From Bacteroidaceae bacterium (GTDB lineage: Bacteria > Bacteroidota > Bacteroidia > Bacteroidales > Bacteroidaceae), in the NCBI GenBank assembly GCA_017617635.1, contig JAFZVW010000028.1:1-37023 (forward strand): a DNA stretch of 37,023 bases. Direction: 5' to 3'. Of this stretch, positions 85 to 24,465 are shown piece by piece. A program made the translations under genes and the position numbers. Numbering within the stretch: position 1 is the stretch's first letter; every line of letters begins with the position of its first letter. The notes under the pieces were generated by a model, which saw only the letters and a program-made list of their open reading frames with translations, searched no databases and was not told where the DNA came from.

Positions 85-3063
85 TTAGAAGAGAACCTTT
101 TTGCCGTTAACGATATTGATGCCCTTCTGCATCTTATTCAGTCGCTGACCAGAGAGATTGTAGATGACAGACTCATTGTCCATCGTCCATTGTCCATTGT
201 CCATTGAGCTGATGCCTGTCACAACATCATCAAAGTTAATGTAGAATCCTCTTGCATCCCCACCAGCACCAATATTAAGATAAGCACGATTGGCCTTAAG
301 GTTATACGAAGAACTATTAACGTGATAGAAACCAATGCGATTGTCGTTTTCCCTATCGAAACCGAGGACATAGTTGGTTCTTGTTTCTGCCGTGCAGTCA
401 ATGCTTGTACCCGTGAAGGTTCCTCTAAGTGCATTTGTCGTAGCGGGAGAGGAAGCATAATTACTACCGATGGTTGCAGTAACACTTGTTGCACCTTCCT
501 CACCAATCAGCAGCACAGGTGTACCTGCAGTAATTGTTGTAGCGCCATCACCAGGCACAATGTAATTGTCACTCTTTGTAGGAGCGTAAGCCTTCACTTC
601 TTTCGAGGAAACGCCTTCTAATGCTGTGATATTGAATGGTACACACAGTGTTGCATACGTGTGAGCAGTTCCAGTGTTGTCATTGGCGGCAGTCAGAGGG
701 ATGGTTGCTGTTGTGGCCTCTTCCACTATCCACTGAGCAGCATCAGCCTTGTAGTCGGTTCCACCAATGACAGCCTCATCAGAAGTATCAACTGTATAGA
801 TACCCTTTTCCAGATAAGAAGTATAGTCACCAGTTCCGTTGCCATAGCAAATTGCAAAAGCAATCTGACCTGCAGCCATACCAGGAAACCAGTTTACATA
901 TTTGTCCGGATTAGTTGAAAGATACCCTACACCAGCACCAACTGATGCACCTGCAACAACCCAACCAAAGCCGGAACCCTGATTGTACATATAGAGGTGT
1001 CCGTCACCATCCTTGTCATAGAGTCTTATGATAGAAGCTGCACTATTGCCATCGCTGTTACTTGCATATACGCCTCTCGTTGAAACATCGTAAGCTTGTG
1101 GCCCGCTCACGGCTGTCAGATACTTGCCTGTAGCTACATTCTTTAGGCGATAGAACCCCGCTGTTGGTTCAACTAAAGACATGTTATTCTTGATTGTCGT
1201 CAAAGCTGTATAGCAATCGGAGTAAGCAGAAGTAGTTTCTCCTGATATCGCAGCTCCAACATTTGAGATGGTACTGGCTGCCTGTTCATTTGTTACAACA
1301 GAAGCATCTGCAGTATTCATTTGACCGATACTTGTACCAAAAGACCAGTCCTTCATGTTATTATAGAGTGCAATGAGTATGTTCTCATCTGTTGAAGCAA
1401 CAATTGTAGAACCCTCATCGTTGTGAACTGAACTCCATTCTGTGGTGCTACATGTGCGAAGATAATTACTACCATTATCATGATGGAAATATATGTTCAT
1501 ATTCTCCTTCATACGTAGACAAATACCACCTGTATTAGTTTCAACATACCAATACTTATTCGCAAAATCACCAGCATCAACAAATTGAATGTTGTTATTG
1601 TTGTGATTGCTGCCTGTAACAACGCTCGTATAAGTAAGATACTTGTCTGTACCATTGGTTTGGTTAATTATCTTGAAACCTGTATAGGGATCGCCAATGA
1701 ATGCCCATGCAGCATTTGGGTTAAAGGGAGTGCTTGTGGTCAGCAACTCCACATCACCTGTAGCTTCATCATTGTACGCAAGATACTTGCTCCGGATGCT
1801 CAGATTATAATAGTAAGGATTGCTCGTGTCGGCAGTATATTTTACAGGAGCATCAGCCTTAGGAGTAGCCGTAAATTCCACGTTGGTGTTGCCATTTGAA
1901 CTGATAGTAACGTCTACAGTGTTGTATGTGTAGAATAAGTTACGCTGGTATTCTGTAGGCAGAGTCGTAATCTTGGCGCCATTGGTCGTAGCTACAGGAT
2001 TTGAAGTGAAAAGCGTATTGTCTGATACATCCTTCACTATATATGTAACATAGTTAAAAAAAGTGACAGGATAGATGCCCCACACATTGTTTCCGGTAGT
2101 GGATTCAACATTTCCAGTACTCCAAAAGGCAAGAGTTTCACCTTGTCCATTATTGTCAACTATTTTATCACCATCTTTTAGATTCCAACCAAATTGATAG
2201 CCTCCATCTGTTATGTTGTAAAAACGATAGTTTCCGGCTTCGGATTGAGAATAGGTTCCTTGTAGGGAGGCATCAACAAAAGCTCCATTTGCAAACTGAA
2301 GATTGTACCCACCATTTCCATCAGAGACAAATCTAACAAGATCTTTTATGTATAAGGAGATAGGGTTGTTGTTGATAGCTGCAGGATTTATGCCTTGTGC
2401 TTCTCGTTTCAACCTATTCCCAGCACCTGTAAAATAAATGGGAGTATTGTATGATTCATCTTCTTGTTGTCCATCTACATTTTTCTTTCTTCGATTTGTA
2501 ATAAGATACCAGTGGGCATTGTCGGAGGCAGATGAAGCGACTGTAAATGAGTTCGTTTTTTCTCCTATGCTGATTAATGCATCCGAAGGTATTGTTGGCG
2601 CAAAATAAAAATCAAATTCCTCAATCACAAACTCTTGAGCAGGATTTTTATTACAATACATTACCGAACCTTCAGTGGTATCATCACTGCCCAAATATCC
2701 TTGATAATCACTGGATTGTTGATTCAGTGTGTAAGTGTCATCTTTACCACTCACCTCGGCGATTGTCCAAGGGGTTGAATTAGAAGCATTAGCTTGAGCA
2801 TGCCATGAAGTGGCATATAATGAGTTCGTTAGATTACTAATTGTCCATTTATCACCACTTGCAGTAAAATATACTACACTAAATGTAGCGCTTAACTTTG
2901 CATTTTGACCCGCAGTTTCAATATTTACATAAAGACCAGAGCTTGAATGTTTAATGGTATAAGGTCTTCCTTCAACAAAAGACACCGAGGCCCACATACT
3001 CCCGACGCATACCATCAGCATCGTGAGTAAAGTAAAAAGTTTTGTTTTCATTTGTTTACACAT
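85..3063 (-). CDS. Large secreted surface protein with lectin-like modules and C-terminal sorting tail
   Basis: A 992-residue protein starting with a signal peptide (hydrophobic run after MKTKLF, probable cleavage after WAS). ATG at 3063 is used here; an in-frame ATG at 3051 gives a more conventional signal peptide and may be the real start. Three stretches, at about residues 30-150, 410-560 and 635-780, have the pattern of ricin/beta-trefoil-like sugar-binding modules (phrases such as YTIKHSSSGLYV and FYRLKNVATGKYL). A beta-rich domain follows, then a short repeat-encoded linker at about 953-964 and a tail reading IYNLSGQRLNK...GINIVNGKKVLF. That tail is the usual form of a type IX secretion (Por) sorting signal, so I infer export and attachment to the outer surface. 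No catalytic motif was recognised. It lies downstream of the structured RNA at 3158-3488, with no good promoter of its own between them. Confident as a secreted protein; ligand unknown. Confidence 0.85.
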   Translation of the reverse strand: MCKQMKTKLFTLLTMLMVCVGSMWASVSFVEGRPYTIKHSSSGLYVNIETAGQNAKLSATFSVVYFTASGDKWTISNLTNSLYATSWHAQANASNSTPWTIAEVSGKDDTYTLNQQSSDYQGYLGSDDTTEGSVMYCNKNPAQEFVIEEFDFYFAPTIPSDALISIGEKTNSFTVASSASDNAHWYLITNRRKKNVDGQQEDESYNTPIYFTGAGNRLKREAQGINPAAINNNPISLYIKDLVRFVSDGNGGYNLQFANGAFVDASLQGTYSQSEAGNYRFYNITDGGYQFGWNLKDGDKIVDNNGQGETLAFWSTGNVESTTGNNVWGIYPVTFFNYVTYIVKDVSDNTLFTSNPVATTNGAKITTLPTEYQRNLFYTYNTVDVTISSNGNTNVEFTATPKADAPVKYTADTSNPYYYNLSIRSKYLAYNDEATGDVELLTTSTPFNPNAAWAFIGDPYTGFKIINQTNGTDKYLTYTSVVTGSNHNNNNIQFVDAGDFANKYWYVETNTGGICLRMKENMNIYFHHDNGSNYLRTCSTTEWSSVHNDEGSTIVASTDENILIALYNNMKDWSFGTSIGQMNTADASVVTNEQAASTISNVGAAISGETTSAYSDCYTALTTIKNNMSLVEPTAGFYRLKNVATGKYLTAVSGPQAYDVSTRGVYASNSDGNSAASIIRLYDKDGDGHLYMYNQGSGFGWVVAGASVGAGVGYLSTNPDKYVNWFPGMAAGQIAFAICYGNGTGDYTSYLEKGIYTVDTSDEAVIGGTDYKADAAQWIVEEATTATIPLTAANDNTGTAHTYATLCVPFNITALEGVSSKEVKAYAPTKSDNYIVPGDGATTITAGTPVLLIGEEGATSVTATIGSNYASSPATTNALRGTFTGTSIDCTAETRTNYVLGFDRENDNRIGFYHVNSSSYNLKANRAYLNIGAGGDARGFYINFDDVVTGISSMDNGQWTMDNESVIYNLSGQRLNKMQKGINIVNGKKVLF
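174..206. repeat. Heptanucleotide tandem repeat inside a CDS
   Basis: The 7-base unit CATTGTC (plus-strand reading) occurs four times in a row from 174, the second copy with one mismatch (CATCGTC), followed by a partial fifth copy. It lies in the reading frame of the 992-residue secreted protein and encodes the linker MDNGQWTMDNES just before the sorting tail. Because 7 is not a multiple of 3, gain or loss of one unit would shift the frame of the tail. Confidence 0.85.
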
Positions 3064-3157
3064 ATTTGGTTAGATTTAGTTGCCTTCTGTGCACTACGTC
3101 TCCAAATAGTGTCCCTAAATGAATGATTGATGATTTGCGTTCCTACCCCAAGATACA

Positions 3158-3195
3158 GAAAAAGCGTGGAGACCTGTCAGTTACTCGCTCCACAC
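3158..3195 (-). terminator. Intrinsic terminator ending the structured RNA
   Basis: Minus strand: an 8-bp stem (3195-3188 with 3171-3164, one G-U pair) with a 16-base loop, followed directly by TTTTTC at 3163-3158. It ends the structured region 94 bases before the ATG at 3063, so it could also act as an attenuator for that gene. Confidence 0.7.
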
Positions 3196-3488
3196 TCCGA
3201 GGCCGTAGGATTGCCCATTACAGTCAAAACGAGCAACTACGACCCCACGCCGATATGCAAACAATACACCTGCCAGTTTTAGCAGGTGCACGTTAATTAC
3301 ATACCCATGGGCGTCTACCGTTGCTGTTGTTCCCTGACTATAATTGAAAGTTTCCTACGCTTTCGGAGTGTCAAGAACAAAGCGCGTGATATACGCCTTC
3401 TTAAATACTTGGTATCCCACACCGCCAAAAAGGAACTCTTTCCTATTGGCATTCCCAGTGGCTTTTTACACCACTTTCGGCGTGAAGA
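3158..3488 (-). ncRNA. Candidate structured RNA of about 330 nt (or long attenuated leader)
   Basis: The 540-base gap at 3064-3601 holds no convincing gene, but on the minus strand it has a promoter (3494-3524), dense base pairing and an intrinsic terminator (3158-3195). Pairings found by eye, in plus coordinates: a closing stem 3484-3478 with 3424-3418 that encloses two hairpins (3475-3471 with 3461-3457; 3449-3440 with 3435-3425, loop 3439-3436); a long arm 3314-3310 with 3251-3247 continuing as 3305-3299 with 3258-3252, capped by a 7-bp hairpin (3288-3282 with 3273-3267); and an arm 3241-3237 with 3208-3204 continuing as 3236-3231 with 3216-3211. I recognise no RNase P, tmRNA, SRP, 6S or known riboswitch core. 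It could be a stand-alone RNA, or a regulatory leader of the secreted-protein gene starting 95 bases after the terminator. Confidence 0.55.
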
Positions 3489-3493
3489 CGATA

Positions 3494-3524
3494 CAAAGAT
3501 ACATACTTATTATATATAACGCAA
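3494..3524 (-). promoter_or_regulatory. Bacteroidetes-type promoter for the structured RNA
   Basis: Minus strand: TTG at 3524-3522, a 20-base spacer, then TATCTTTG at 3501-3494, matching the Bacteroidetes TTTG/TAnnTTTG pattern. Expected transcription start is about 3488, just before the closing stem of the structured RNA. Confidence 0.7.
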
Positions 3525-3552
3525 GTTTTCAGTCAAAAAGATTAATGAAAAT

Positions 3553-3588
3553 GAACCCCGAAAGTTTTTTGTATGACTTTCGGGGTTC
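3553..3588 (-). terminator. Hairpin after the AraC-type regulator gene
   Basis: A perfect 12-bp inverted repeat (3553-3564 with 3577-3588, GAACCCCGAAAG and its complement) begins 13 bases past the TGA of the regulator gene on the minus strand and precedes the promoter of the structured RNA. The following minus-strand sequence is AT-rich but lacks a long T run, so termination strength is uncertain. Confidence 0.6.
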
Positions 3589-3601
3589 ACCTGATTCTCT
3601 A

Positions 3602-4735
3602 TCAGTTTTGTTTCGACTTTCCTTCTATGTAATCATCAAGTGGTATGCCATAGATGCGTTCGAAGCAGAGACGGGCGGTCCTGGCTGTGGCAAATCCTGC
3701 CATATCGCAGTCCGTGACTGTGCGCAGGCGTCCTGACTTGATTAGTTTCCTGAGTTCCTCTACGCGGTAAAGGGTCAGGTACTCGTGGACATTGTTGTAG
3801 CCCTGGCTGCGCAGGCACTGTAGCATGAGCTGGCGGTTGATGCCGGTCTCCTCGCACAGGCGGTCGCGGTTGAATGTGTAGTCGCACCATGCCGGACGGT
3901 GTGTCTGCATCCAGTGCTGTACGCGGTGATAGCAACGCAGATTACGTTCGTTGAAGTCCTCTTCGCGTCTTGCATCGGCATCGTCCTGCGTGTTGCCATC
4001 GACATCGTCGTCAAGCAGGTAGTCGTCCTCGTCTATATGGGGGAGTGGAAGGCTGCGTGCCATGTTGTCCATGGTCTGGAAGACGAGGTACATATTCAAT
4101 GCTGAGAATACGCCCACGTACCAGCATAGGCCCTGGGGGCTGTAGTTGAAGCAGACGTATATGTACAGGACGGAGCTGAGGCCCAGAAGTGTACAATAGC
4201 CTACGAGGTATGCGGGTATCGTGGTCTTGTATGCCATGCGGTGTGGCAGGCGGAAGATGTTGACGACATAGTAGATTCCCATGCACAGTGCGATGATACG
4301 CATTATCAGGTCGGGAGAGAGTATGTTGTCGACAAGTTCGGCAAACGAATAGACCTTGGTCAGGCTGCCGAAGGGATAGAATGCAACGAGGGAGATAAAT
4401 CCCAGTATGATAATGGGCGAGGCATATAGCCACATGCGCTCCCACTGCAGGAAACCCGGCATGGTGATGCCGAAGGTGTATATACTCTGCAGGTATGTGC
4501 CGACGACGAACATCAGCAGCATACCGGGATGCAGGAGACCGGGATGTCCGTTGGCAACACTTGCGCTGTATGGCGTAATGATGAGCAGAATCATGGTAAA
4601 CACTCCCATAATCCATGCCAGGCTGAGGTATTGTACCTTGTATCTTGCATAGATTGCCACAATGGCTGTAGCCACGGCGTGTGCCATAGTACAGCAGGCA
4701 AATGTGAGCATTACAATGAAATTAACGGTATCCAC
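3602..4735 (-). CDS. Membrane-anchored AraC-type transcriptional regulator
   Basis: A 377-residue protein with GTG start at 4735, last gene of the surface operon and 25 bases after the previous stop. The N-terminal 225 residues form about seven hydrophobic helices (around 5-27, 33-57, 64-88, 98-120, 137-160, 172-197 and 205-225) and contain no histidine-kinase or periplasmic sensor domain. A strongly acidic linker follows (DEDDYLLDDDVDG...), then roughly 280-377 form an AraC-like helix-turn-helix domain: RDRLCEETGINRQLMLQCLR as the first HTH, and the typical end GFATARTARLCFERIYGIPLDDY as the second. It should sit in the inner membrane with the DNA-binding part in the cytosol. I infer that it controls the operon in response to a membrane or envelope signal; the sequence does not show the target. 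Confidence 0.85.
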   Translation of the reverse strand: MDTVNFIVMLTFACCTMAHAVATAIVAIYARYKVQYLSLAWIMGVFTMILLIITPYSASVANGHPGLLHPGMLLMFVVGTYLQSIYTFGITMPGFLQWERMWLYASPIIILGFISLVAFYPFGSLTKVYSFAELVDNILSPDLIMRIIALCMGIYYVVNIFRLPHRMAYKTTIPAYLVGYCTLLGLSSVLYIYVCFNYSPQGLCWYVGVFSALNMYLVFQTMDNMARSLPLPHIDEDDYLLDDDVDGNTQDDADARREEDFNERNLRCYHRVQHWMQTHRPAWCDYTFNRDRLCEETGINRQLMLQCLRSQGYNNVHEYLTLYRVEELRKLIKSGRLRTVTDCDMAGFATARTARLCFERIYGIPLDDYIEGKSKQN

Positions 4736-4760: not shown

Positions 4761-7700
4761 TTATTTTCCTGTTGCCATAATCGTCAGTATCCTGGTCACG
4801 TCACCGATTTCAATCTGGCCGTTGCAATTGGCATCGGCTGCCTTTGTGTCGTAGAAATCGCTTTCCTCGGGATTAGCCATCATGGTCAGTATTGATGTTA
4901 CGTCACCGATTTCCACCTCGCCACTGCCGTTAGCATCGCCTATGAGGTAGGCATCCTGGTTTGTGCCTACAACGACCTTGACGGTCTGGCCGAGTGATTC
5001 CTGCATGTCAACATCTAACTCGCAATAGAGGCGTCCGGCATATATCTTGCCGACTGTCAGGTCTACTGGAATGTCGCCGAGCCATGGGCCGAACCATTCG
5101 TCGGTTGAGATGCCTTCCTTGTCACCTGCGGCTATGGTTACTGTCTTCTTGATCTTGAAGGTGCGGACACCGTTCTCGTTGACCATCGTTATGCCCGAGA
5201 GCACGATTGTACCGATAGGCATTGGCTCGCCGTCTACGATAAGCTGGAAGTTGGGCAGCTCGAAGTCAAATGTTCCGTCGCCGTTGTCGCGGGTGTAGAC
5301 CGTTGACTCCTCGGGCTCGGATGCTTCGCCGTTGATGGTAATGGCTATGGGCTCGGTAAACTCGGTGCTGACTTCCGAGGCGTCCCTGAAGGCAATCTGG
5401 TACATGTTCTCCACTTCATAGCCGCTGGTAATAATGGTCAGGACATTTGTCTTGCGGTTAAATGCCAACTGTGTCTTCTGTGTGTCCTGGTTGGTGGCAT
5501 AGGTCAGGAGGCTTGCATTGTAATACTTGTCAACCGCAGCTGCACCAAGGATGTCCTCTCCATCGAATGTCAATGTCGTAAGTCCGGGTGCCGGCTTGTG
5601 GTACTGGATGGTGTACTGGATCGGGGCGAAACCGTAGTTGATGCCTTCTTCCTGCTTGAGGGTAACGTGCATCTGCCACTGTACGGAGTCGAACTTGCAT
5701 TCGTAGACTCCGTATCCTGCCGTCTCGACAGTCGGGATGATTTCTGCCTTCCAGAACACGTCGGACATGTCGATTGTATTGGAAGCCGAAGGTGTGTATG
5801 TCTTGTTGTCATAGACATAGCTGAGCATCTTCAGCTCGGGTACGGGCTTGGAGAGCAGTTCGATATTGCTGATTGATATCCACTGATGGATAATTCCTTC
5901 GCACGAACCGCCTATCTCGATTGTAACCTTGTCGTTGGGATTCATTACATCGAATGCAAGATAGCGGTATTCCCATCCGCGTCCGATGTTGTTGTTGGCA
6001 TAGGTGCCGTCGGAACGGAAGTTGACGTTACCGTTCACGTCAACGCCACGGCCTGTATCGCCCTTGGAGGGGAAGGATACGCTCTGGTCGCCTACCTTGA
6101 TGTATGACTCGGCATACTGACTGGCACGGGCAGTGGCCTTGACCATATAGTGGCCTGCAGGAAGCCCGACTGTCTGACGCGCACTGGATGTCCATGGGTC
6201 CGAAGACTCCCACAGAACGACGGGCGATGCCGACTGCTCGTAATACGGAGTCATGGTGCCGTCCCAGTGATGACCGCCGGTTGTGTTCTTGGACATATTG
6301 GTATTCCAGTATGTGGAGTTGGTCAGATCGGTGGAACCGAGCAGGGATGTACGGTCGACAGTAAAGCCGTCGTTGACAAAATTGAACTGGGCTGCACGGA
6401 CAGTAGCCAGAAGGTCGCTGAGGACTGTCTTGTTGGTGGCGTTCTTGTTCATGACCTGACGATAGGATGTGATGTCCATACCCATCTGCTGGGCACGTGT
6501 CAGTTCGTCATACAGCTCTATGCGCAGATTGCGGCAGTCAACTTCATTGCAGTCATAGAACTGCCATACTGCAAGACCGTAGCGCGGATCTTCCTTGCCA
6601 TAGACTTCCAAATCGTTTGTTCCGTCAGGGCCATCCGATGCATTCTCGTGCCAGGACAGGAATGCCTGATACGAGCGTGAGACGAACCATGATGTCCAAG
6701 TTGCCGTACTTGACATAATATATCCGCCAACTGACTGCTGTATATCCAATGCTGTTGCCGAGGTGCTGTTTACGCTGTACGAAACACTGGTCGGTGCCGT
6801 AACCAGAATATTGTAATTGATGGTAATGTTGAAATACTTGCCTCCGGAACTCTGGACATAGTTGTTGTCGGTTACGGTCCATTTGGTCAGGTCGGTGCCC
6901 TCGCCGTTGGAAAGAGTATTATTGTCCATCACGTACATGTCGTGATATTTGTTCTTGATATAATACTGCTTGTTCTTCTGCATCGTAACAGGTTCGATGA
7001 CATCCTCGCGGGGATCGGGCATCTGTCCGAGGCCGAACTGGTATGTATATACGCGGTTGAAGATGTCGTAACCCTCTGCCGCACGTGCCGTAACAGTCAG
7101 CACGAGTGAGCTCTCGTCAAAGGAGCGTACCAGTGTAGCATCCTCGTTACCGGTCAGGACAAGGCCTGCCTCGCTGTACAGGTCGGTGGTTGTGAAGCCG
7201 TCGACATTGACTGCTTCGCCGTTCCATGTTGCCGACACGATGGCGGGGGCTGGTACGTGGAACTGGATGACACGTGTAATCTTGTTGTCGAAGATGTCTG
7301 TCATTACGACTGTCAGCCGACAGGTCTTGATGTCGAATGACTCGGCATGTGACTTGACGTCCTCGTTGAATTCGAGCTGTACACGCTCCTTATTATATAT
7401 AACGCTCTCGGAGTTAGTCAGCAAGTCTACTCCGTCCTGTGTGGCGCTGCTGATATCTGCATTGGGCTTTGTGAAGGGGATTGTGTAGGTGTGGAAGTTG
7501 GTGTCATCCTCGTCGAAGTTCTCGCCCTTGACGGTAACAGTGAGTGCATAGGCATTGTAGTCAAAGCTGTATGACCATGTTGCTGCACGTCCCGTCATCT
7601 TGACATCGGTAAGCTTTTCGGGGTCAAAGAGGCAGTCCATCTTGGTCTGTCCCAGAATATTCTGACCGTCGTAGGTGATGCTCTTGGCCTCGCTGTAATA

Positions 7701-8411
7701 CAGCATCTCCATATCGTCGACATAGAGATAATCGGACTCGGCTCCGTCACCTGCTATGGCGCTGGTACTGATATTTACCAAGACATAGTAGGGGTCCTTG
7801 GATGCATTCTGGACATCAAAGGGAGCAGTGTACTGGGTCCATGTGCCGTTGCTGGGGGTGGACTTGATGCTGGTTGCCACTACGGTTGCGGTAATATTGT
7901 TGGCCTGCGGGTCCTGGAAATAGCCCTTGGTAGTAAGCGTGATGCTGACCTTGCCGTCGTTCTTGCCAGCGAACTTCACCCAATAGCGTGCAGCATCGGG
8001 GTGACCAGAGAATCGCATTGACTGGTCGGTACGGCTCTCGTTGATGTAGTTATAGTTTCCGGTTCCATCGGTGGCAGTGGTAGAACCCATGTTCACACAG
8101 CCTGTTGTAAGGTTACCCTGGGCGATGATGCCGAACATGACATTGCGTGCCTTGATTTGTGCACTGTATTTGCCCTTGGTACCGGGGCGTGTATCGGTGC
8201 TCTTCCACAGCTGTACGGCACCGGCCATTCCCTTCAGGGAACCTGTTCCATCCATGAAAGAGCTCCACTGCAACGGTTCTTCGCCTGTATTGCCGCTGTA
8301 CGAAACGCTTTCCCACTGTTCGAAGCCGGAGTTGCCCAGCTGATACTGTGCATTTCCCGACATGGCAACAACTGCCATCAGGAAAGTATAAAACAACCTT
8401 TTCATTTTCAT
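4761..8411 (-). CDS. Large secreted PCMD-like protein with calycin-like domain and C-terminal dockerin-like repeats
   Basis: About 1216 residues. The open frame begins at a TTG (8423), but ATG codons at 8411 and 8405 directly precede a good signal peptide (MKRLFYTFLMAVVAMSGNAQ), so 8411 is chosen. After the signal, a PCMD-like beta-sandwich (about 22-245: NSGFEQWESV..., GNLTTGCVNMGS, DYLYVDDMEMLY) matches the N-terminus of the next protein upstream in the operon. Ig-like stretches follow, then a carbohydrate-binding-like sandwich at about 680-855, a calycin-like barrel at about 1035-1150 (FELPNFQLIVDGEPMPIGTIVLSG), and two EF-hand-like repeats at the end (DANGSGEVEIGDVTSILTMM and DANCNGQIEIGDVTRILTIM) typical of dockerin type I. 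The Asp/Asn positions fit calcium binding. It lacks the sorting tail of its paralogue, so it may be held at the surface through another protein. No cohesin was seen in the window, and no enzyme motif was recognised. Confidence 0.85.
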   Translation of the reverse strand: MKMKRLFYTFLMAVVAMSGNAQYQLGNSGFEQWESVSYSGNTGEEPLQWSSFMDGTGSLKGMAGAVQLWKSTDTRPGTKGKYSAQIKARNVMFGIIAQGNLTTGCVNMGSTTATDGTGNYNYINESRTDQSMRFSGHPDAARYWVKFAGKNDGKVSITLTTKGYFQDPQANNITATVVATSIKSTPSNGTWTQYTAPFDVQNASKDPYYVLVNISTSAIAGDGAESDYLYVDDMEMLYYSEAKSITYDGQNILGQTKMDCLFDPEKLTDVKMTGRAATWSYSFDYNAYALTVTVKGENFDEDDTNFHTYTIPFTKPNADISSATQDGVDLLTNSESVIYNKERVQLEFNEDVKSHAESFDIKTCRLTVVMTDIFDNKITRVIQFHVPAPAIVSATWNGEAVNVDGFTTTDLYSEAGLVLTGNEDATLVRSFDESSLVLTVTARAAEGYDIFNRVYTYQFGLGQMPDPREDVIEPVTMQKNKQYYIKNKYHDMYVMDNNTLSNGEGTDLTKWTVTDNNYVQSSGGKYFNITINYNILVTAPTSVSYSVNSTSATALDIQQSVGGYIMSSTATWTSWFVSRSYQAFLSWHENASDGPDGTNDLEVYGKEDPRYGLAVWQFYDCNEVDCRNLRIELYDELTRAQQMGMDITSYRQVMNKNATNKTVLSDLLATVRAAQFNFVNDGFTVDRTSLLGSTDLTNSTYWNTNMSKNTTGGHHWDGTMTPYYEQSASPVVLWESSDPWTSSARQTVGLPAGHYMVKATARASQYAESYIKVGDQSVSFPSKGDTGRGVDVNGNVNFRSDGTYANNNIGRGWEYRYLAFDVMNPNDKVTIEIGGSCEGIIHQWISISNIELLSKPVPELKMLSYVYDNKTYTPSASNTIDMSDVFWKAEIIPTVETAGYGVYECKFDSVQWQMHVTLKQEEGINYGFAPIQYTIQYHKPAPGLTTLTFDGEDILGAAAVDKYYNASLLTYATNQDTQKTQLAFNRKTNVLTIITSGYEVENMYQIAFRDASEVSTEFTEPIAITINGEASEPEESTVYTRDNGDGTFDFELPNFQLIVDGEPMPIGTIVLSGITMVNENGVRTFKIKKTVTIAAGDKEGISTDEWFGPWLGDIPVDLTVGKIYAGRLYCELDVDMQESLGQTVKVVVGTNQDAYLIGDANGSGEVEIGDVTSILTMMANPEESDFYDTKAADANCNGQIEIGDVTRILTIMATGK

Positions 8412-8453
8412 CTCGTAATTCAATCTTATATTTCTAATACCTTATATATACTA

Positions 8454-11363
8454 TTATAGCTTCAATACCAGGCGTCCGTTTACGACGTGTATGCCCTTGG
8501 CCGAGGAATTGACGCGTCGGCCCTGCAGGTCGTAGCATGAACCTACAGTTGTATTGGATGCGGGCCTTTCGGTAACGAATTCAGTAACACCGGTAAAGTC
8601 CTCTCCGTCCAGACTGTCGAAGAATGCCTTGTTGCCCAGCTGTACGTTAACGTCCTGTCCGCCGGCACGCAACTTGATTGTTACGAACAACTGCTCGTTG
8701 TTGATCTTGCCGGCTGTAGGCAGTGGCAGCGTGCCCAGCATGGGACCCACCCACATTGCATCGGCAGGATCGGTACCTGCGGCAATATTCAAATCACCGT
8801 TGTATTCGAACGTTGAATAGTGATGCCCTGTATCTGTGAGACCTACATTCTCGATCAGGATATTGCCGACATACATCGGATCTGAATCTCCGGACTTGAG
8901 AATAAAGTTGTAGAGTGCCAGGTCTATTGTATTGTCGTCGTGGAATGTAATCTGTACCTCGCTGTCCATAGGACCGTTCATATTGCCGTCGACACCGACA
9001 TAGAGATCCTCGGCATAGACCTTGGTTCCTGATGTGGGCATCATCCATGCGGGCTTGGCAAGCTTCCAGATGCTGTACGGAACCTGTACGTTGTACTTCG
9101 TATCAGTATATACGCCTGAGAGCTTGACCTCGTCGTCGGTAGCGTCCCACGTAATGGGGTGAACGCGATTGATTTCCTCGTCAGCAACATTCTCGTCAGA
9201 GGAATGCTTGACCACAACGTAGCACAAATTAACGTAGGTTGCATCGTAGGGGATGACCTCGGGGCTGTAGCTGATGGAAGCCGACTTGAGCCAGTAGGTA
9301 ATCTTGGCTGCCGGTTTTGCAGGCTTGAGGATGTAGTACTGAACCTCGACCTTGTATTCCGAATCGTAGTATGTGCCGGTGATTGACTTCTCGTCATTGG
9401 TCTGGAACCAGTCCAGGGTGGTTGAACGCTGGATTTCCTCGTCCTCGACACCGGCCTTTGAGGAATGCTTGAGAATCACATACGACATCTGTACGGATGT
9501 TGCATCGTATGTCAGGACGGATGGATTGAATGTAACGGAATTGGGCTTCAGCTTGTATGTTATTATAGGTTCGGCATCCTTGCCCAACTCGTTTCCTACC
9601 TCGACCTGAACCAGCTGGCCCATTGTGGACATGAGATTGATGAAGATCTGTACATGCAGCTGCTGGTCGTTCATTTCGCCAGTCAACTGCAGGGGAATTA
9701 CGCCCAGGTACGGGCCCATCCAGAACTTGTCAGGGTCACTGCCCTCGGGGATTGTTATGTTTCCGGTGTATGTGAACTTGCCTGCTGCTATTGTCCTGTC
9801 CCATTCCTGCGCAATGCCCTTGACAGCAATGTTGCCGACAGGAATCTCGTCGCCGTTGCTGATGAGCACAAAGTCGTTCAAGGCAAAGTCTATCACGCCG
9901 TCCTGTCCGTATTTCACGACAACCGTGCATGGCTGCGGATCTCCCTTCTGACCATTGATTATGATGGTTACATTGTCGTCGTAGTTCTTCTGGGTTCCGG
10001 CTGCGGGCCATTCGTGTTCGGGCTCGGGCTCCTCGTCCTTCTCGTATATTGCCATGTAGGTTGCATTGGCGGTCACAATCTCGACTATAGCCGGTGTCCA
10101 TCCCATGAAGGTATAGCCCTCGCGCACGGGATTGTCCGGGATGATTATCCTGTCACCTTCCTTGATCTGTGTGGTGAACAGTGTCTCGCCGTTGTAATTG
10201 AGGAACGTAACGGTATAATATACGTCATCGGGGATTATCTCCTCGTAAGTGGCGGTATAAGTGGCATCGGCCTGTACCGGTGAGACAATATCGGGGTCCC
10301 AGCCTGTAAAGGTATATCCCTCGCGTGCAGGAGCATTGGGGGCAACGACCGGGTCACCTTCCTTTATGGTCCTTGAGGCAATAAGCTGGCCGTCATAGGT
10401 GAGGAATGTGACGGTATAGTATACTGTAGGTTTCCTGAACTGGTATGTGTAAGTATGCTCGGAACTGTTGTCCTGTGCCGTAACATGGACCGTCAGGACG
10501 TATGTACTGGGATTGTACTCGTGTGTAATGGTTGCACCTGCACCGTTGGACTTTAATCCCGAAAGAAGGCTTTCGTCATATTCTTCTTCGACCGAGGTCT
10601 TGCCCAGGATGCTCTTCCCCTTATACATGATTTCGGACAACTCGCTGTTGTACACAAGGGAGATGTCGTCAATATACATATAGTCATCCTTGCTGCCCTT
10701 GCCGGGGATATTGGTCGTGGTGAATGAAACCAGGGCATAGGCAGGATTGTCGGTGCTGACATAATTGAAAGGTATGGTGTATTCGGTCCATTCGTCGTTA
10801 CTGTCTGCAAACAACGCAGCACTGCCGACCATCTGTCCCGTGATACCCTCTCCTGTTGCTATGGGGAACTGGAAACGGCCTTCGCTGTGCAGGTATGCTG
10901 CAATCTGTCCCTTGTTTACACCACTGAAGCGCACCCATACCTTCATTGCGTCGGGGCGTCCGGTCAACGGCATTGCCTGACCGTCAGGAATATTTGTATA
11001 ATTGTAATTGACTGTAGTATTACCCTGGTTGATATTACCCATCTCAACGCAGCCGGTAGTCAGATTACCTGCCAAATTCAGGGTGAGATAATTCTTTGCC
11101 TTGATCAGGACACTGGTCGAACCTGCCGAACCTGTACGTGCCTCGCCCTGTTCCAATGGAGCAGCATACTTAACGGCATTGGCCTTTACCGCACCTGTAC
11201 CTGTAAGATACGAATGCCATGCTACTGGGGCAATTTGAGTCTTATCGTTGTATGTGACGTCTTCCCACTGCTCAAAATCGGCATTCTGTAACTGGAAGAC
11301 ACCCTGTGCACTGGCAGTGACAGCCAGCATACCTATAACAAACAATGTAAATAATTTCTTCAT
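8454..11363 (-). CDS. Large secreted PCMD-like protein with InlB-type repeats, two calycin-like domains and sorting tail
   Basis: A 969-residue protein with a clear signal peptide (MKKLFTLFVIGMLAVTASAQ). Order of parts: PCMD-like N-terminal domain at about 22-238 (NADFEQWEDVTYN, GNLTTGCVEMG, DYMYIDDISLVY); a short Ig-like module; two Listeria-Bacteroides (InlB_B-type) repeats at about 314-440 (VTFLTYDGQ... REGYTFTGWDP and VTFLNYNGE... REGYTFMGWTP); a calycin-like domain at about 454-593; two ~90-residue repeats with PSVLTYDATSVQ and PEVIPYDATYVN; a second calycin-like domain at about 780-925; and a tail CYDLQGRRVN...KGIHVVNGRLVLKL typical of type IX secretion sorting. It is paralogous to the dockerin-bearing protein encoded just downstream. 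It is probably displayed on the cell surface as an adhesin or glycan-binding protein; no catalytic site is recognised. Confidence 0.85.
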   Translation of the reverse strand: MKKLFTLFVIGMLAVTASAQGVFQLQNADFEQWEDVTYNDKTQIAPVAWHSYLTGTGAVKANAVKYAAPLEQGEARTGSAGSTSVLIKAKNYLTLNLAGNLTTGCVEMGNINQGNTTVNYNYTNIPDGQAMPLTGRPDAMKVWVRFSGVNKGQIAAYLHSEGRFQFPIATGEGITGQMVGSAALFADSNDEWTEYTIPFNYVSTDNPAYALVSFTTTNIPGKGSKDDYMYIDDISLVYNSELSEIMYKGKSILGKTSVEEEYDESLLSGLKSNGAGATITHEYNPSTYVLTVHVTAQDNSSEHTYTYQFRKPTVYYTVTFLTYDGQLIASRTIKEGDPVVAPNAPAREGYTFTGWDPDIVSPVQADATYTATYEEIIPDDVYYTVTFLNYNGETLFTTQIKEGDRIIIPDNPVREGYTFMGWTPAIVEIVTANATYMAIYEKDEEPEPEHEWPAAGTQKNYDDNVTIIINGQKGDPQPCTVVVKYGQDGVIDFALNDFVLISNGDEIPVGNIAVKGIAQEWDRTIAAGKFTYTGNITIPEGSDPDKFWMGPYLGVIPLQLTGEMNDQQLHVQIFINLMSTMGQLVQVEVGNELGKDAEPIITYKLKPNSVTFNPSVLTYDATSVQMSYVILKHSSKAGVEDEEIQRSTTLDWFQTNDEKSITGTYYDSEYKVEVQYYILKPAKPAAKITYWLKSASISYSPEVIPYDATYVNLCYVVVKHSSDENVADEEINRVHPITWDATDDEVKLSGVYTDTKYNVQVPYSIWKLAKPAWMMPTSGTKVYAEDLYVGVDGNMNGPMDSEVQITFHDDNTIDLALYNFILKSGDSDPMYVGNILIENVGLTDTGHHYSTFEYNGDLNIAAGTDPADAMWVGPMLGTLPLPTAGKINNEQLFVTIKLRAGGQDVNVQLGNKAFFDSLDGEDFTGVTEFVTERPASNTTVGSCYDLQGRRVNSSAKGIHVVNGRLVLKL

Positions 11364-11407
11364 CTGAAATATATCTTTTTACCTTTTTACCTGTTAACCT
11401 ATATCCG

Positions 11408-12256
11408 TCAGAAGCAATATGCTCCGCCTATTGTTCCGAATATCGGGAACATCTTGAAACGTACTGTGTCGTAATCTCCGGGGAAGATGCTGGTAAAACC
11501 CCAGTCAAGCTTGCCGAATGCTCCGATGTGCTTGGTTATCTTCCAGTCAAACAGCAACTCGATACCAGCCGTGCAGGTAACCATATCCTTGCCAAGACTG
11601 GTGCTGGCTTCCTTGTCAGGACCGAATATATTCTTGTCCTGGGTAGGACCTGAACCGTCGCCATGGTCAACACGAAGATATGCGTCCTCGGCACGCTCTG
11701 CCTCGGGGAATCCGTGAACCGTTGCGTCAAAGTTCTTGGACAGGAACATTTGCATATAAGGACCCATGCTTACATGCCAACGCGGACTCATACGTAATGT
11801 AGCCATTACAGGAATGGTAATGGTCCAGTTGTTGATACTGGTCTCGTTGATACCGGTAAACCATCCTTTCTGCTCTTCGCCATCCAGCACCATCTTTGTG
11901 TAGTAGTTCTTCACCTCGGCCCTGGTAGAAAATCCCTGATTGGCCAACGTGACGCCAATCTTCAGACCCCAACGACGGTTGAACATCTTGTAGCCCTCGA
12001 CACCGACGCTGATGCCACCTTGAGGACTGAACTTCTGAATCTGTCGGATTTCGCGCGGAATAGGCAGCGGCGAATAACCGCCAATACTGTAACCCATCTT
12101 CAACTGAAAGCCGAAGCCTGTACGGCTGGTCGGTCCCCAGCGCTCCCATTTGTCCGCAACGGGAATGGGTGTGTCTACATTAGTTTCCTGAGCCCATATC
12201 GGCAAGGCTGTCAAGCACAAGACGACTACTGTAATATATTTGATTATCCTGTTCAT
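11408..12256 (-). CDS. Outer-membrane beta-barrel (porin-like) protein of the surface operon
   Basis: About 282 residues. An in-frame TTG at 12259 would add one residue, but the ATG at 12256 overlaps the stop of the preceding gene as TGATG, indicating translational coupling, and is preferred. A signal peptide (about 1-23, ending PIWAQ) is followed by alternating amphipathic strands rich in glycine and aromatics (GFGFQLKMGYSIGGYSP, GGISVGVEGYKMFNRRWGLKIGVTLANQG, WHVSMGPYMQMFL, GAFGKLDWGF). It ends in GGAYCF, with the terminal aromatic residue typical of outer-membrane barrels. This fits the small PorT/OMP_b-brl barrel families of Bacteroidetes. Its place directly after a PCMD lipoprotein suggests that the two form a surface complex, with the barrel as anchor or pore. 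No substrate can be inferred. Confidence 0.8.
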   Translation of the reverse strand: MNRIIKYITVVVLCLTALPIWAQETNVDTPIPVADKWERWGPTSRTGFGFQLKMGYSIGGYSPLPIPREIRQIQKFSPQGGISVGVEGYKMFNRRWGLKIGVTLANQGFSTRAEVKNYYTKMVLDGEEQKGWFTGINETSINNWTITIPVMATLRMSPRWHVSMGPYMQMFLSKNFDATVHGFPEAERAEDAYLRVDHGDGSGPTQDKNIFGPDKEASTSLGKDMVTCTAGIELLFDWKITKHIGAFGKLDWGFTSIFPGDYDTVRFKMFPIFGTIGGAYCF

Positions 12257-15200
12257 CAATCCTCGTAATAAATGGTTATACTTTCGATATAGAGTTTGGA
12301 ACCCTCGGCTCCTTCCATATTCTGTCCGTTCCAGCTACTGGTTGCTCCGACAACCATACTGTAGCCGCCGTCTGCCAAGGCTGAGGCATCGACATTGTAT
12401 GTCTCGATCTTGAACTCCAGGTCTGTCAATTCGGTACCTACCTGCTTGCTTGAGCCATGAAGGCGCGCATAACCGGCAATGTTACCGTGAGTAAACAGAT
12501 CAGAGGTAGAGAGTGTGAACTGGCCTCCCATATTACGGTAGAATACACAGTAAATGTCAGGCGCATCGGTCTCACCGGTAGTATAGGTGTTGCCCTTGTA
12601 GTATTTCTCGCCTGGAGTATACTTGGCACGGACCTTCATCTTCGTTGGCTTGTGCCTGAACGGTGCTCCGTAGTGTGCAAGTGACTGGAAGTACGAGACA
12701 CCGCCTGTCATAGCCTGCTGGAGGGTATATGTGTCCATCGTTCCGTTGAACAGCATGCCCGGAACGGTGCGCATCTTCAGCACCGAAGCGTATGTGCTGT
12801 TGTTGGCAGCCGTCTCAAGCAACAACACGCCGGTTCCGTCCTTCCTTGCAGGACACTCGGACACTGATGCTCCGGTGCGGAGAACCTTGTACATAGGATT
12901 CGTCGTTACCCAGGAAGAAGCCAGGTTTGCATCGGTCCATGAGTAGTACCCGCTGGCTGTGCTTCCGTCCTCGAAACTGAAGACGTAACGGGGTTCCTGA
13001 GCAATGTTTGCCCTGACCTTGTATGTAAGCGTCTTCTTACCGAAACGACTCTTGACTGTAAATGTATGGAACTGGCCGTCCGAGAGATTTACCTTCTGAC
13101 CGGATGTAAACACATCTTCATTCTCGTCATCTATTGTCGAGAACTTGGTTGCATGGATAGTGAGAGGCACCGCAGTAACATCAGCATTCCATTTGACAGG
13201 GAACACGACTTCATTTGCCTCGTTTGCCGTCTGGACGCTGTCGGATGCCTGCTTGAATATCTTAAGCGGATTGTCCACGAGAATGCTAAATGACGAAACG
13301 GTGAATTCGGTCTGTTCGGCATACTGGACCTTGACTTTATAGGTATCTGTCTGGGAACCGTCCTGACTGATAACTTTGAACTGATGGAACTGTCCGTCGG
13401 AAAGATCCACATTGCTACCCGAAACGAAATCACTGCCGGCAGCATTCTGAATTGTTGCCCACTTGCTGACATTCAGGGTCAGGGGTACTGATGTGACAAC
13501 GGCATCCCATCTGACGGGGAATATGATTTCGTTGGAAGCAGAAGGTGTCTGCACACTGTCAGCTACGTTCTTGAATATAGTCAGTGGCGACGCTATCTTG
13601 ATACATGCCGACAGGATTGTCGGAACCGGCTGTTCCTCGAACCTGGCACGGACTGTATATATGATTTCAAGTTTGCCCTCGGCATCACGCGCCTTGAACT
13701 TCAACACTTTGTCTTTTGAAAGGTCAACCTTTGTTCCGGAAACAAAGACCTTGCCACCCTCGTCATAAACAGTGTAGCCCTGACCCGGATGTAGGGTCAG
13801 CGGAACAGATTTCATGTCTGCATCCCATTTTACAGGGAACACTATCTCGGTTATGCCCTCTTCCAGGAATTGAATACTGTCTCCTTCTTCAGGGAATAAA
13901 ACTAAGGGATCATCAACAATAATACTGGCAGATGATATTGGAAGTGTTGCATCTCCCTCATCCTCGGGATCCTCGAATACAACCTCGATATTATCCATGA
14001 AGAGCCTGGAATCCAAAGCTCCTTCGAAATATCCGCCACGCCAGCTGCTGGTAGATCCTATTGCGATGCTATAGCCGCGGTTCCTGAGAATGATCGGATC
14101 TATGGTATTTTCCTGTCCTGTCTGGAAGAAATCATAGTTGACAGGTATTGATACATGCTTCCACTCACTTGTAATACCGTGTATCGGGCTGTTTGTAAGT
14201 ACTGGTTCCGGAATATGGCGCTGTTCCTCTTCGTTCCATACCATATTATAGTTGTGTGACAGACGCGCAACACCTTTTATATGTTTATTGGTCAGAACGT
14301 CGTCACCGTCAAGCACTACGGGATTGCCGTCCTCGTCGACATTGCGATAGATTATGCAATACAGATCAGGTTCGTCAACAACACCCGTAATCTCATTTTC
14401 GTTTGTATCCTGGAACTTGGCACCCGGCACATATTTCAGGTCTGCCTCGATGCGAACCGGCTTGTGGGGACACGGAACTCCCATCTTTGTTGCCTTGCGG
14501 GCATCATTCAATGCCTTGCTGGAATCAAACAGACCATTGAACATACTGCCTGCTGCCAGAGGGATATGTACCATCTGTCCGAAAGAGCCTGTACTGCGTG
14601 TATGCAATTCGACACAGTCAGTTCCGTCCATTCCGCCGTTGAAGACTGGAATTGTCGGATACTCGTCAGGCTGTGCACTGCCTCGGCTTAATATATATCC
14701 GGGATTACCGTTCTTCCAAACCGGATCACCTGCACGGAACAGATTCTTAGTGATAGTAGGATCGGTTTCCGTCCAGACATAATAGCCGGGATTTGTGGAG
14801 GTCGTTCCCTGGACTTCATAATTTCCATTAAAAGTGATCAGCATCTCGGTCAACACCGTATATGCCGGCTGATGTTCCATAGAAACTTCGTATGTCTTGC
14901 TCCATTCGCCACTTTCACACCGGACGACAAATTTCTGCACACGCTCGTTGGTGAAATTTACAAGCCGCCCGTTCTCAAAAGGCACCTCTTCACCATCAAT
15001 GACAATATATGCTGTTGAGCCTTTGGAAATCTGGATGTAAACGGGATAGCTTCCTAATGTAGCATTATGCTTTACAGAAAAAACGTGTTTAGTTTCTATG
15101 GGAAGAAAATGGTACGCTGCATCTGATTCGTGATCAAATATTTCCAACGGGTTTTCAAGTTGTACGGAAATCTCGTTGATGTCACATTCTATTTCCAACG

Positions 15201-15282
15201 GAGCCTCTGATATACAGGACACCATGAGAACAGTTGAAGACAACGCCAGTAGCAACGACAATATCAGCAATTTTATCTTCAT
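12256..15282 (-). CDS. PCMD-type surface lipoprotein with duplicated PCMD domain and four Ig-like repeats
   Basis: A 1008-residue protein and first gene of the operon. The N-terminus is a lipoprotein signal with the modified cysteine at residue 23 (LMVSC), followed by CISEAPLE, acidic enough to be compatible with surface export in Bacteroidetes. An Ig-like unit (about 34-145) precedes a first PCMD-like domain (about 146-436: DGTDCVELHTRS, PVRIEADLKYVPGAKF, YSIAIGSTSSWRGGYFEGALDSRLFMDNI). Three tandem ~100-residue units follow (about 447-765), each with an xxxPLxIF, FPVxWxAxxxxVPLT, FxSGxxVxLSxG pattern. A second PCMD-like domain fills about 766-1008 (DGTGVLLLETAANN, PTKMKVRAKYTPGEKYY, YSMVVGATSSWNGQNMEGAEGSKLYIESI). 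PCMD stands for 'putative carbohydrate metabolism domain'; its biochemical activity is not established, so glycan binding is only an inference. Confidence 0.85.
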   Translation of the reverse strand: MKIKLLILSLLLALSSTVLMVSCISEAPLEIECDINEISVQLENPLEIFDHESDAAYHFLPIETKHVFSVKHNATLGSYPVYIQISKGSTAYIVIDGEEVPFENGRLVNFTNERVQKFVVRCESGEWSKTYEVSMEHQPAYTVLTEMLITFNGNYEVQGTTSTNPGYYVWTETDPTITKNLFRAGDPVWKNGNPGYILSRGSAQPDEYPTIPVFNGGMDGTDCVELHTRSTGSFGQMVHIPLAAGSMFNGLFDSSKALNDARKATKMGVPCPHKPVRIEADLKYVPGAKFQDTNENEITGVVDEPDLYCIIYRNVDEDGNPVVLDGDDVLTNKHIKGVARLSHNYNMVWNEEEQRHIPEPVLTNSPIHGITSEWKHVSIPVNYDFFQTGQENTIDPIILRNRGYSIAIGSTSSWRGGYFEGALDSRLFMDNIEVVFEDPEDEGDATLPISSASIIVDDPLVLFPEEGDSIQFLEEGITEIVFPVKWDADMKSVPLTLHPGQGYTVYDEGGKVFVSGTKVDLSKDKVLKFKARDAEGKLEIIYTVRARFEEQPVPTILSACIKIASPLTIFKNVADSVQTPSASNEIIFPVRWDAVVTSVPLTLNVSKWATIQNAAGSDFVSGSNVDLSDGQFHQFKVISQDGSQTDTYKVKVQYAEQTEFTVSSFSILVDNPLKIFKQASDSVQTANEANEVVFPVKWNADVTAVPLTIHATKFSTIDDENEDVFTSGQKVNLSDGQFHTFTVKSRFGKKTLTYKVRANIAQEPRYVFSFEDGSTASGYYSWTDANLASSWVTTNPMYKVLRTGASVSECPARKDGTGVLLLETAANNSTYASVLKMRTVPGMLFNGTMDTYTLQQAMTGGVSYFQSLAHYGAPFRHKPTKMKVRAKYTPGEKYYKGNTYTTGETDAPDIYCVFYRNMGGQFTLSTSDLFTHGNIAGYARLHGSSKQVGTELTDLEFKIETYNVDASALADGGYSMVVGATSSWNGQNMEGAEGSKLYIESITIYYED

Positions 15283-16906: not shown

Positions 16907-17824
16907 ATGGATTGCCCGACCTACCATATTCCGGTGATGCTGAATGAGTGCATCGAAGGCTTGAATATAAAGCCCGACGGCATTTATCTGGACCTGACAT
17001 ACGGAGGAGGCGGTCACAGCATGGAAATCCTGAGCAGGCTGGATGACAGAGGTCATCTGTACGGCTTTGATCAGGACAAAGACGCAATGGATGGGGCAAT
17101 ACAGGATGACAAATTCACATTTGTACACAGTAATTTTCGCTTTATAGGCAACTGGATGCGATACTACAATGTCGAGGGTGTAGACGGAATATTGGCCGAT
17201 CTGGGTGTGAGCAGCCATCATCTGGATGACGGAGAAAGAGGGTTCTCTTTCAGACATGATGCCCCCTTGGACATGAGAATGAACCGTAAGAGCAGTCTTA
17301 CCGCATACAACATTGTCATGGAATACCCCGAAGACCGGATTGCAGACATTCTGTATCTGTACGGGGAGCTAAGACATAGCCGGCGAATTGCTGCCAAGAT
17401 AGTAAAACACCGAACGAAAGAAGAGATAAAGACAACAGGACAGCTTGCCGGCATAGTCGCACCGCTGTTGAACAGGGAACGTGAGAAGAAGGACTTGGCC
17501 AGGGTGTTCCAGGCACTGAGGATAGAAGTCAACGGGGAGATGAAGGCCCTGGGTGAAATGCTGGAAAGTGCAACATCAATACTAAACCAAGGAGGACGGC
17601 TGGTCATAATGACATACCACAGCCTGGAAGACAGAATCGTCAAAAACTACATAAAGAAAGCTGGACACAACAAAGATGACAACAGTACTGATTCGCTGAT
17701 TTTCGGAAAACCGACATCAATATTAAAGGACTTAAGCAAAGGAGCTGTAATTCCTTCGGAAGAAGAAATCAACATTAACCCACGGAGCCGTTCGGCTAAA
17801 CTTCGTATAGCAGAGAAAAGATGA
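16907..17824 (+). CDS. rsmH: 16S rRNA (cytosine(1402)-N(4))-methyltransferase RsmH
   Basis: A 305-residue protein that uses S-adenosylmethionine to N4-methylate C1402 of 16S rRNA in the P site. It opens with the family hallmark YHIPVMLNECIEGLNI, followed by the SAM-binding loop YLDLTYGGGGHS (about 26-37), DGILADLGVSSHHLDDGERGFSF, LRIEVNGEMKAL and the C-terminal ITYHSLEDRIVKNY. Its TGA overlaps the ATG of the ftsL-like gene (ATGA at 17821-17824), so the two are translationally coupled. Formerly called mraW; second gene of the dcw cluster. Confidence 0.96.
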   Translation: MDCPTYHIPVMLNECIEGLNIKPDGIYLDLTYGGGGHSMEILSRLDDRGHLYGFDQDKDAMDGAIQDDKFTFVHSNFRFIGNWMRYYNVEGVDGILADLGVSSHHLDDGERGFSFRHDAPLDMRMNRKSSLTAYNIVMEYPEDRIADILYLYGELRHSRRIAAKIVKHRTKEEIKTTGQLAGIVAPLLNREREKKDLARVFQALRIEVNGEMKALGEMLESATSILNQGGRLVIMTYHSLEDRIVKNYIKKAGHNKDDNSTDSLIFGKPTSILKDLSKGAVIPSEEEININPRSRSAKLRIAEKR

Positions 17825-18231
17825 AAGAAAAAGAAACAGAGCCAACAATGATTGAGAAAAAAAACGTAAGACGAAGGAATAGCCGGGTTGAGACTGACAA
17901 CGAACTGGCGTTACGGCAGTTAAGGGATGCATGGAAGCAGATAAGCATCGACGGACAGTGGTTCAAACGTCAGATATGGCTGTTCGTAGTTATCGTAATA
18001 GGCATCATAGTCTACATATCCAACCGCTACGCTGCACAGCAGGAAATTATTGAGGAGCAGTTGTTGCGCGAGGAGTTGCAGGACTGGAAATTCAGAAGCC
18101 TTACAAGAAACAGCGAACTGACATTCAGGACAAGACAGAGTCAGATAGAGTTACAACTGAAAGCATTTGGGGACAGTTCTATTCAAGTTAGCAACAAGGC
18201 ACCCTACCAAATAATAAACACAAACAAATAA
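17821..18231 (+). CDS. ftsL: FtsL-like septal protein (Bacteroidetes type)
   Basis: A 136-residue bitopic protein. About 50 basic, cytosolic residues are followed by one transmembrane helix at about 52-67 (LFVVIVIGIIVYISN) and a periplasmic, Gln/Glu/Leu-rich coiled coil (about 70-118). FtsL proteins diverge strongly, so the call rests on topology and on position between rsmH and ftsI, where ftsL lies in nearly all dcw clusters. It should act with FtsQ and a DivIC/FtsB-like partner to recruit and activate FtsW-FtsI at the septum. No separate ftsB is present. It overlaps rsmH by 4 bases and lies 8 bases before ftsI. Confidence 0.85.
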   Translation: MKEKETEPTMIEKKNVRRRNSRVETDNELALRQLRDAWKQISIDGQWFKRQIWLFVVIVIGIIVYISNRYAAQQEIIEEQLLREELQDWKFRSLTRNSELTFRTRQSQIELQLKAFGDSSIQVSNKAPYQIINTNK

Positions 18232-18239
18232 CACACAAC

Positions 18240-20282: not shown

Positions 20283-20321
20283 ATTAAGGCATATCTAAAT
20301 ACTATACTATATATAAGGTAT

Positions 20322-21776: not shown

Positions 21777-21806
21777 CCATACTTAAATTAAATATTCTAT
21801 TACGAG

Positions 21807-23072: not shown

Positions 23073-23098
23073 TAACAACGACACACTATATATAATAT

Positions 23099-24430: not shown

Positions 24431-24465
24431 GCAAAGGACATGGACATAAAGATGACGACAAGAAA

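Follow-up and report, generated by a model that had tools for sequence, protein, structure and literature searches.

The stretch of DNA analysed here (37,023 nucleotides (nt) of a Bacteroidaceae bacterium, contig JAFZVW010000028.1), hereafter called the window, contains an RNA unit on its minus strand, running from a promoter to a terminator at 3524-3158. This RNA is very probably the 5' leader of the gene that follows it, and a member of an order-wide, cis-acting family with predicted alternative terminating and read-through folds. The family itself is real, order-wide and cis-acting, and is undescribed in the literature searched. Most likely, its members attenuate the transcription of accessory genes through changes of conformation.

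An order-wide family in leader position

In the genome of the window, four long copies of the leader (that of the window included) share 82-100% identity by blastn. Matches by blastn were obtained in 16 of 61 genomes, its own included, all from one genus. Alignment A1 holds 22 of the 28 extracted blastn places and alignment A2 holds 21 of those 22; the covariance model R1 (246 positions, 42 pairs) was built from 21 copies. R1 matches were found: (i) in 82 of the 101 genomes of the window's genus, with 7 matches in the own genome; (ii) in 59 of 393 genomes of Bacteroidales, i.e., in 33 of 207 genera, the own genome being counted in (i) and (ii); (iii) in 2 of 395 genomes drawn from the whole phylum (E<=1e-6), both within Bacteroidales. 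The copy numbers for genus and order are lower bounds, 5 to 20 candidates being scored per genome; with 150 candidates scored, two genomes of the window's genus give 12 matches each. The preliminary description considered one locus and could not show that the RNA exists in many copies across Bacteroidales.

The next open reading frame (ORF), its orientation being called by a simple ORF rule, is co-directional in 198 of 221 distinct copies, opposed in 10 and not in view in 13. For the 208 copies with an ORF in view this corresponds to p ~2e-46, and the comparison with the rate for upstream ORFs gives p 8e-27, the copies being taken as independent in both cases. Among the first 148 copies the next ORF is co-directional in 138, opposed in 5 and not in view in 5, and the upstream ORF is co-directional in 89 of 139. 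The median distance from terminator to ATG is 74.5 nt, taken over the 192 of 195 co-directional cases in which it is below 450 nt. Promoter boxes are not in excess in these gaps (9 of 192 vs. 11.4 expected, for the TAnnTTTG type alone), and the region before the RNA has TAnnTTTG in 148 of 188 cases vs. 24.4 expected. By these motifs, the copies thus have what characterizes a leader RNA, i.e., a co-directional 5' position without promoter-box excess before the gene. Co-direction, the short gap and the lack of such an excess suggest that the downstream gene depends on transcription through the leader.

The signals that delimit the RNA in the window are the following.

3524-3158, minus strand: leader RNA unit, promoter through terminator (from the sequence)
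3522..3524, minus strand: -33 element TTG (from the sequence)
3494..3501, minus strand: -7 box TATCTTTG of a Bacteroidetes-type promoter (from the sequence)
3159..3193, minus strand: intrinsic terminator, 3193-3188 pairing with 3171-3166, then five T at 3163-3159 (sequence and fold)

The spacer between TTG and the -7 box is 20 nt. Transcription probably starts near 3490-3486 (minus strand), about 330 nt before the terminator. Of the 211 family copies having 330 nt of upstream sequence, 177 contain TAnnTTTG at a distance of 60-300 nt before the core; TTG stands at the corresponding interval in 95 of these 177 (25.1 expected). In alignment A3, 89 of 98 copies have TAnnTTTG within 260 nt, vs. 13.1 expected from shuffles. 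A run of at least four T at the end of the covariance model is present in 215 of 229 matches and was not found in 14. An intrinsic terminator thus lies inside the leader, as in attenuators and leader RNAs. After the T run there is a weakly conserved motif (3158-3150 in the window, and homologues), the second place being T in 88% of 166 copies.

The preliminary description had claimed an own promoter (TTG-N20-TATCTTTG) and a terminator with five T, and both are borne out by the window and by the family. It had also left the choice between a small RNA (sRNA) and a regulatory leader. Stand-alone, trans-acting sRNA genes, located by chance before genes that have promoters of their own, would account for the own promoter box and the T run of most copies, and multi-copy sRNA families do exist in Bacteroides (FopS, 14 members, in the accessible part of PMC11697453). 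However, independence from the orientation of the neighbour, as expected for a trans-acting sRNA, was not observed (198 vs. 10), and the short gap has no promoter-box excess of the tested type. The sRNA reading is thus disfavoured and improbable; the other half of the proposal, a regulatory leader with attenuator, is well supported by orientation, promoter boxes, covariation and the lack of an Rfam match.

The neighbours of the leader in the window are as follows.

85..3063, minus strand: downstream gene, 992 amino acids, with a signal-like N-terminus (by eye) and a weak RicinB-lectin-like match under the Pfam cut-off
3602-4735: upstream gene, with a weak HTH_18 match under the cut-off
3552..3589, minus strand: terminator-like hairpin following the upstream gene (inverted repeat, from the sequence)

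Since the upstream gene has its own terminator-like hairpin, the leader RNA appears to begin a new unit. The hairpin region (3550-3597) recurs in the own genome, where short blastn matches to that part of the query occur in five places. Farther away, the window encodes a series of large proteins in which Calycin_like, PCMD, List_Bact_rpt and outer-membrane barrel domains occur (8454-15282 and 4761-8423, minus strand) and a cell-wall cluster with RsmH, a penicillin-binding protein, MurE and MurG (16907-26825, plus strand).

Named hosts of the family include Segatella copri (8 matches), Paraprevotella clara (9 matches), Hallella mizrahii, Phocaeicola oris and Prevotella ihumii. When named genomes were scanned with a sequence pattern, at least 117 stretches were obtained, 80 of which were listed. 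Of the 84 stretches listed from genomes and viruses, 81 also match R1, and the three that do not come from one viral contig, a Pseudoroseomonas and a Variovorax; viral contigs account for 4 pattern matches, 3 of them matching R1. A phage or plasmid origin was considered and rejected (no blastn match among 72,556 plasmid and 50,697 phage records). Two matches belong to metagenome-derived records titled Pseudoflavonifractor and Firmicutes, perhaps mislabelled; because of them, some room is left for a range beyond Bacteroidales. It must be noticed that the genome titled Pseudoflavonifractor sp. has 15 R1 matches (150 candidates scored), several of them on one contig above 1.2 Mb; probably this genome is mislabelled or its bin is a mixture.

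Within the genus, copies of different genomes have a median identity of 0.74 when they precede homologous genes (17 pairs) and of 0.61 when they precede unrelated genes (1541 pairs), and copies of the same genome one of 0.66 (38 pairs). Over all genomes these three classes are nearly equal (0.61, 0.60 and 0.63, respectively). These values therefore point neither to plain homogenisation nor to plain co-inheritance. At one locus (L037) blastn aligned nothing beyond the 5' portion (query 60-190), as though this copy of the leader had decayed.

Covarying helices and proposed alternative folds

The minimum free energy (MFE) of the RNA at 3490-3157 (minus strand) is -134.6 kcal/mol (z -6.96), a value equalled by none of 100 shuffles. 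The MFE fold has a 5' closing stem with two hairpins, a long arm with an apical hairpin, and the terminator. Across copies the leader has a median length of about 320 nt, and its alignments contain many conserved nucleotides.

The tree-aware and independent-pair tests of covariation used 218 of the 229 matches, duplicates and short pieces being excluded. The independent-pair test, which gives the counts of better and worse below, used 109 pairs drawn from these 218 sequences; the register-free z-score test used 91 of 100 copies. The elements considered, all on the minus strand, are listed from the 5' end.

3413..3490: 5' domain, differing between copies in both length and sequence, with its own closing stem in the MFE fold
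3388..3397 with 3319-3310: helix A (35 better, 7 worse; z -11)
3370..3378 with 3338-3329: helix B (42 better, 12 worse; single pairs 55-98% paired)
3364..3369 with 3199-3194: helix P (88 better, 0 worse)
3354..3359, the loop of a small hairpin, with 3209-3204: helix K (52 better, 8 worse; z -18)
3336..3344 with 3225-3217: helix M (91 better, 3 worse)
3266..3289: apical hairpin, whose sequence and length differ between copies (arm base and tip: 65 better, 22 worse)
3243..3250 (strand C5) with 3171-3164: helix C (24 better, 6 worse); C5 also takes part in helix Z and in the long arm
about 3245-3232 with 3216-3201: local helix Q (26 better, 9 worse; z -8.8)
3227..3237 with 3190-3180: helix D (24 better, 9 worse)

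In the tree-aware test all six pairs of helix P exceed every null value. Helix M is supported by the register-free tests (z-score and independent pairs); held in a fixed register it gives no significant covariation in the tree-aware test. The first seven pairs of helix C are 99-100% paired in up to 216 sequences and the eighth is 45% paired, and 11 of the 12 model pairs of helix D are 93-100% paired (the last, 78%). The changes in helices C and D are mostly of the G-C/G-U kind. Near-complete pairing with such changes is what one would expect of strands having more than one partner. Helix D is supported in the independent-pair test (p 0.007). The pairs of the terminator stem are 71-98% paired (tree-aware test), and in the independent-pair test this stem shows no significant covariation (21 better, 14 worse, p 0.16). 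The element at 3477..3487 (minus strand) has a mean of -20.7 kcal/mol in the copies with the motif, which was found in 41 of 53, and is marginal in the independent-pair test (35 better, 19 worse, p 0.02). Three other candidates were rejected: (i) a local hairpin AAGGCGT/ACGC and (ii) helix J (GCAAC/GUUGC), both complementary yet without covariation signal (96 of 100 copies); (iii) a small ORF in the tip (ATG GGT ATG), seen in some copies and missing from others by eye.

Bacteroidales homologues with compensatory changes, the check proposed in the preliminary description, were thus found by the tree-aware and the independent-pair tests. The features that it had drawn resemble the MFE fold; its single nested fold, on the other hand, is one of several mutually exclusive pairings. 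Strands are shared by the terminator and helix D (3188-3190), the terminator and helix C (3166-3171), helices B and M (3336-3338), helices Z and C (3243-3250), and helices K and Q (3204-3209). Moreover, helices A and D cross P-K-M. Because several helices are mutually exclusive, the leader is read as a conformational transcription attenuator.

The RNA may take alternative folds sharing strands while the polymerase synthesises the leader. In one of them, the long arm P-K-M would coexist with the local terminator hairpin and transcription would stop at the T run (OFF). In the other, the A-B hairpin domain would be combined with helix D, which would capture part of the 5' strand of the terminator and allow read-through (ON). 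Helix D (with Z) would then be the mark of the ON state, and the exclusive helices would be real alternative states. A signal, i.e., a small molecule, an RNA-binding protein or an elongation factor, could pick the fold. The leader would thus probably decide, gene by gene, whether transcription continues into the gene.

Folding energies in the window partly support the assignment of P-K-M-T to OFF and of D with A-B to ON, which we infer. P-K-M-T is the most stable (-134.1 kcal/mol), followed by A-B-C-D (-123.5 kcal/mol) and Z-A-B-D (-118.2 kcal/mol). Two points weigh against the attenuator mechanism as drawn: the folds containing D are about 11-16 kcal/mol weaker than P-K-M-T in the window, and forcing A-B alone (-128.8 kcal/mol) or Z alone (-123.3 kcal/mol) still leaves a hairpin on the terminator side. 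The energies by themselves give no support for a stable ON state.

Downstream genes and the nature of the signal

Clustering of the 195 downstream proteins gives 126 clusters, of which 103 have one member. A crude rule based on hydrophobicity classes 118 of the 195 as exported-looking vs. 53 of 150 upstream proteins (p 5e-6). Pfam and PADLOC scans covered the first 330 amino acids of 128 of the 195, and families were noted from the best 25 of 64 (Pfam) and the best 25 of 57 (PADLOC). Pfam gives BspA-type leucine-rich repeats (12), NusG (6), SNF2 (5) and ResIII (5), and further BACON, outer-membrane barrel, PLD and MBOAT domains. PADLOC gives SNF2/PLD helicases and further proteins resembling defence components, although many of its models concerned are broad. 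Among the operons headed by a copy (by eye, with NusG and FHA by Pfam), two are NusG-led, one of them for sugar nucleotides and polysaccharide and the other encoding ClpV- and Hcp-like proteins; another is of the FHA/kinase/phosphatase type, and in others the first gene encodes a large PLD/helicase-like protein. After many copies the next ORF is short and lipoprotein-like.

Three forms of the leader model differ in what would act on the RNA. The first is a new riboswitch class responding to a metabolite or an ion, which is possible but doubtful. Second-messenger riboswitches do place one leader type before many transcription units, as is the case here, and the many conserved nucleotides and alternative folds are consistent with a riboswitch. 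However, no pathway common to the downstream proteins is evident over the 126 clusters, and the median length is far above the usual size of riboswitch aptamers, which are far smaller than about 320 nt.

In the second form, which we regard as unlikely, a NusG-type antitermination protein (UpxY-like) would target the leader and the polymerase would ignore the terminator, as in the capsule loci of B. fragilis. The second largest downstream cluster is NusG-like (8 of 195: six with the Pfam NusG domain, one with KOW alone, one by similarity alone), and two of the operons above are NusG-led. This cluster deserves attention because UpxY of B. fragilis keeps transcription from terminating in the leaders before upxY, according to the accessible part of PMC7819879. 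On the contrary, the majority of the 195 first genes encode proteins of other kinds. Genes of this family number 46 in 28 genomes with at least four leader copies and 28 in 19 genomes without a match (1.6 vs. 1.5 per genome), and in ten genomes that carry 4 to 9 copies a single NusG match was obtained. Thus no correlation of NusG gene number with leader copies was found in these 47 incomplete genomes; since they are incomplete, and no NusG was seen at all in 7 of the 47, this argument is weak. At two loci (L021 and L104) the predicted start codon of a NusG-like gene lies 9 nt past the model end, nearly inside the T run.

The third form, quite unlikely in our opinion, is an RNA-only processive antitermination of the put/EAR kind for long operons, the terminator being a checkpoint. 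The large and intricate fold and the copies heading long defence-like, polysaccharide and secretion-like operons are in its favour, whereas the short lipoprotein-like ORF after many copies is not. The put and EAR RNAs are RNA-only processive antitermination elements; their comparison with the leader was made by the Rfam scans alone.

It may tentatively be proposed that one new class of RNA switch gives shared control, via one common signal without which the polymerase would not pass, of surface or exported, polysaccharide, type VI-like and anti-phage-like genes. To our knowledge, few regulatory RNAs have been described in Bacteroidales. The leader family adds to them a large covarying class that can be found with R1, and offers a testable common leader for many surface and conflict genes. 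A single genome of the window's genus has as many as 12 matches, and the cultured species Segatella copri and Paraprevotella clara have several each. The known layers of variation of such genes in gut Bacteroidales include invertible promoters and UpxY/UpxZ antitermination (PMC12632263, accessible part).

Comparison with known RNAs and leaders

The leader matches no family of Rfam 15, RNase P, tmRNA, signal recognition particle RNA, 6S RNA and cobalamin riboswitches included, which agrees with the earlier claim that it matches no known RNA class. In the whole window tRNA alone reaches the gathering score; region 3050-3620 gives just sub-threshold matches to unrelated families at E<=10; and 16 homologous loci give no match at the gathering score. 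No description of the leader family was found in the open-licence literature, preprints being outside this scope. A screen for structured RNAs in the human microbiome gave 3161 candidates (Fremin and Bhatt 2021, PMC8040213); parts of the leader family could be among them, and the accessible text describes no such leader.

FopS of B. thetaiotaomicron is also a multi-copy Bacteroidales RNA and acts on surface-transporter genes. It differs, by its description in the accessible part of PMC11697453, in being trans-acting and intergenic, antisense or in 3' untranslated regions, whereas the leader family stands before start codons.

Capsule leaders under UpxY control, as described in the accessible part of PMC7819879, are premature-termination leaders, also from Bacteroidales, that stand ahead of a gene for a NusG paralogue. 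Likewise, by description, some family members precede NusG-paralogue genes, one of them in a polysaccharide operon. On the contrary, most members precede other genes, and the copy number shows no correlation with NusG genes in the 47 incomplete genomes. In the LoaP system of Bacillus (PMC12691694, accessible part) a hairpin and a terminator in the dfn leader also decide read-through; the contrast, again by description, is between a small UNCG hairpin there and a large multi-helix RNA here.

Transcription-terminating riboswitches share with the family exclusive leader pairings, one of which includes an intrinsic terminator. The family differs from them in that it is unusually large, has heterogeneous downstream genes, and is predicted from sequence with no assigned ligand. 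An attenuating leader is of a known kind; what is new is this class, together with its size, the multi-state pairing and the mixture of genes downstream.
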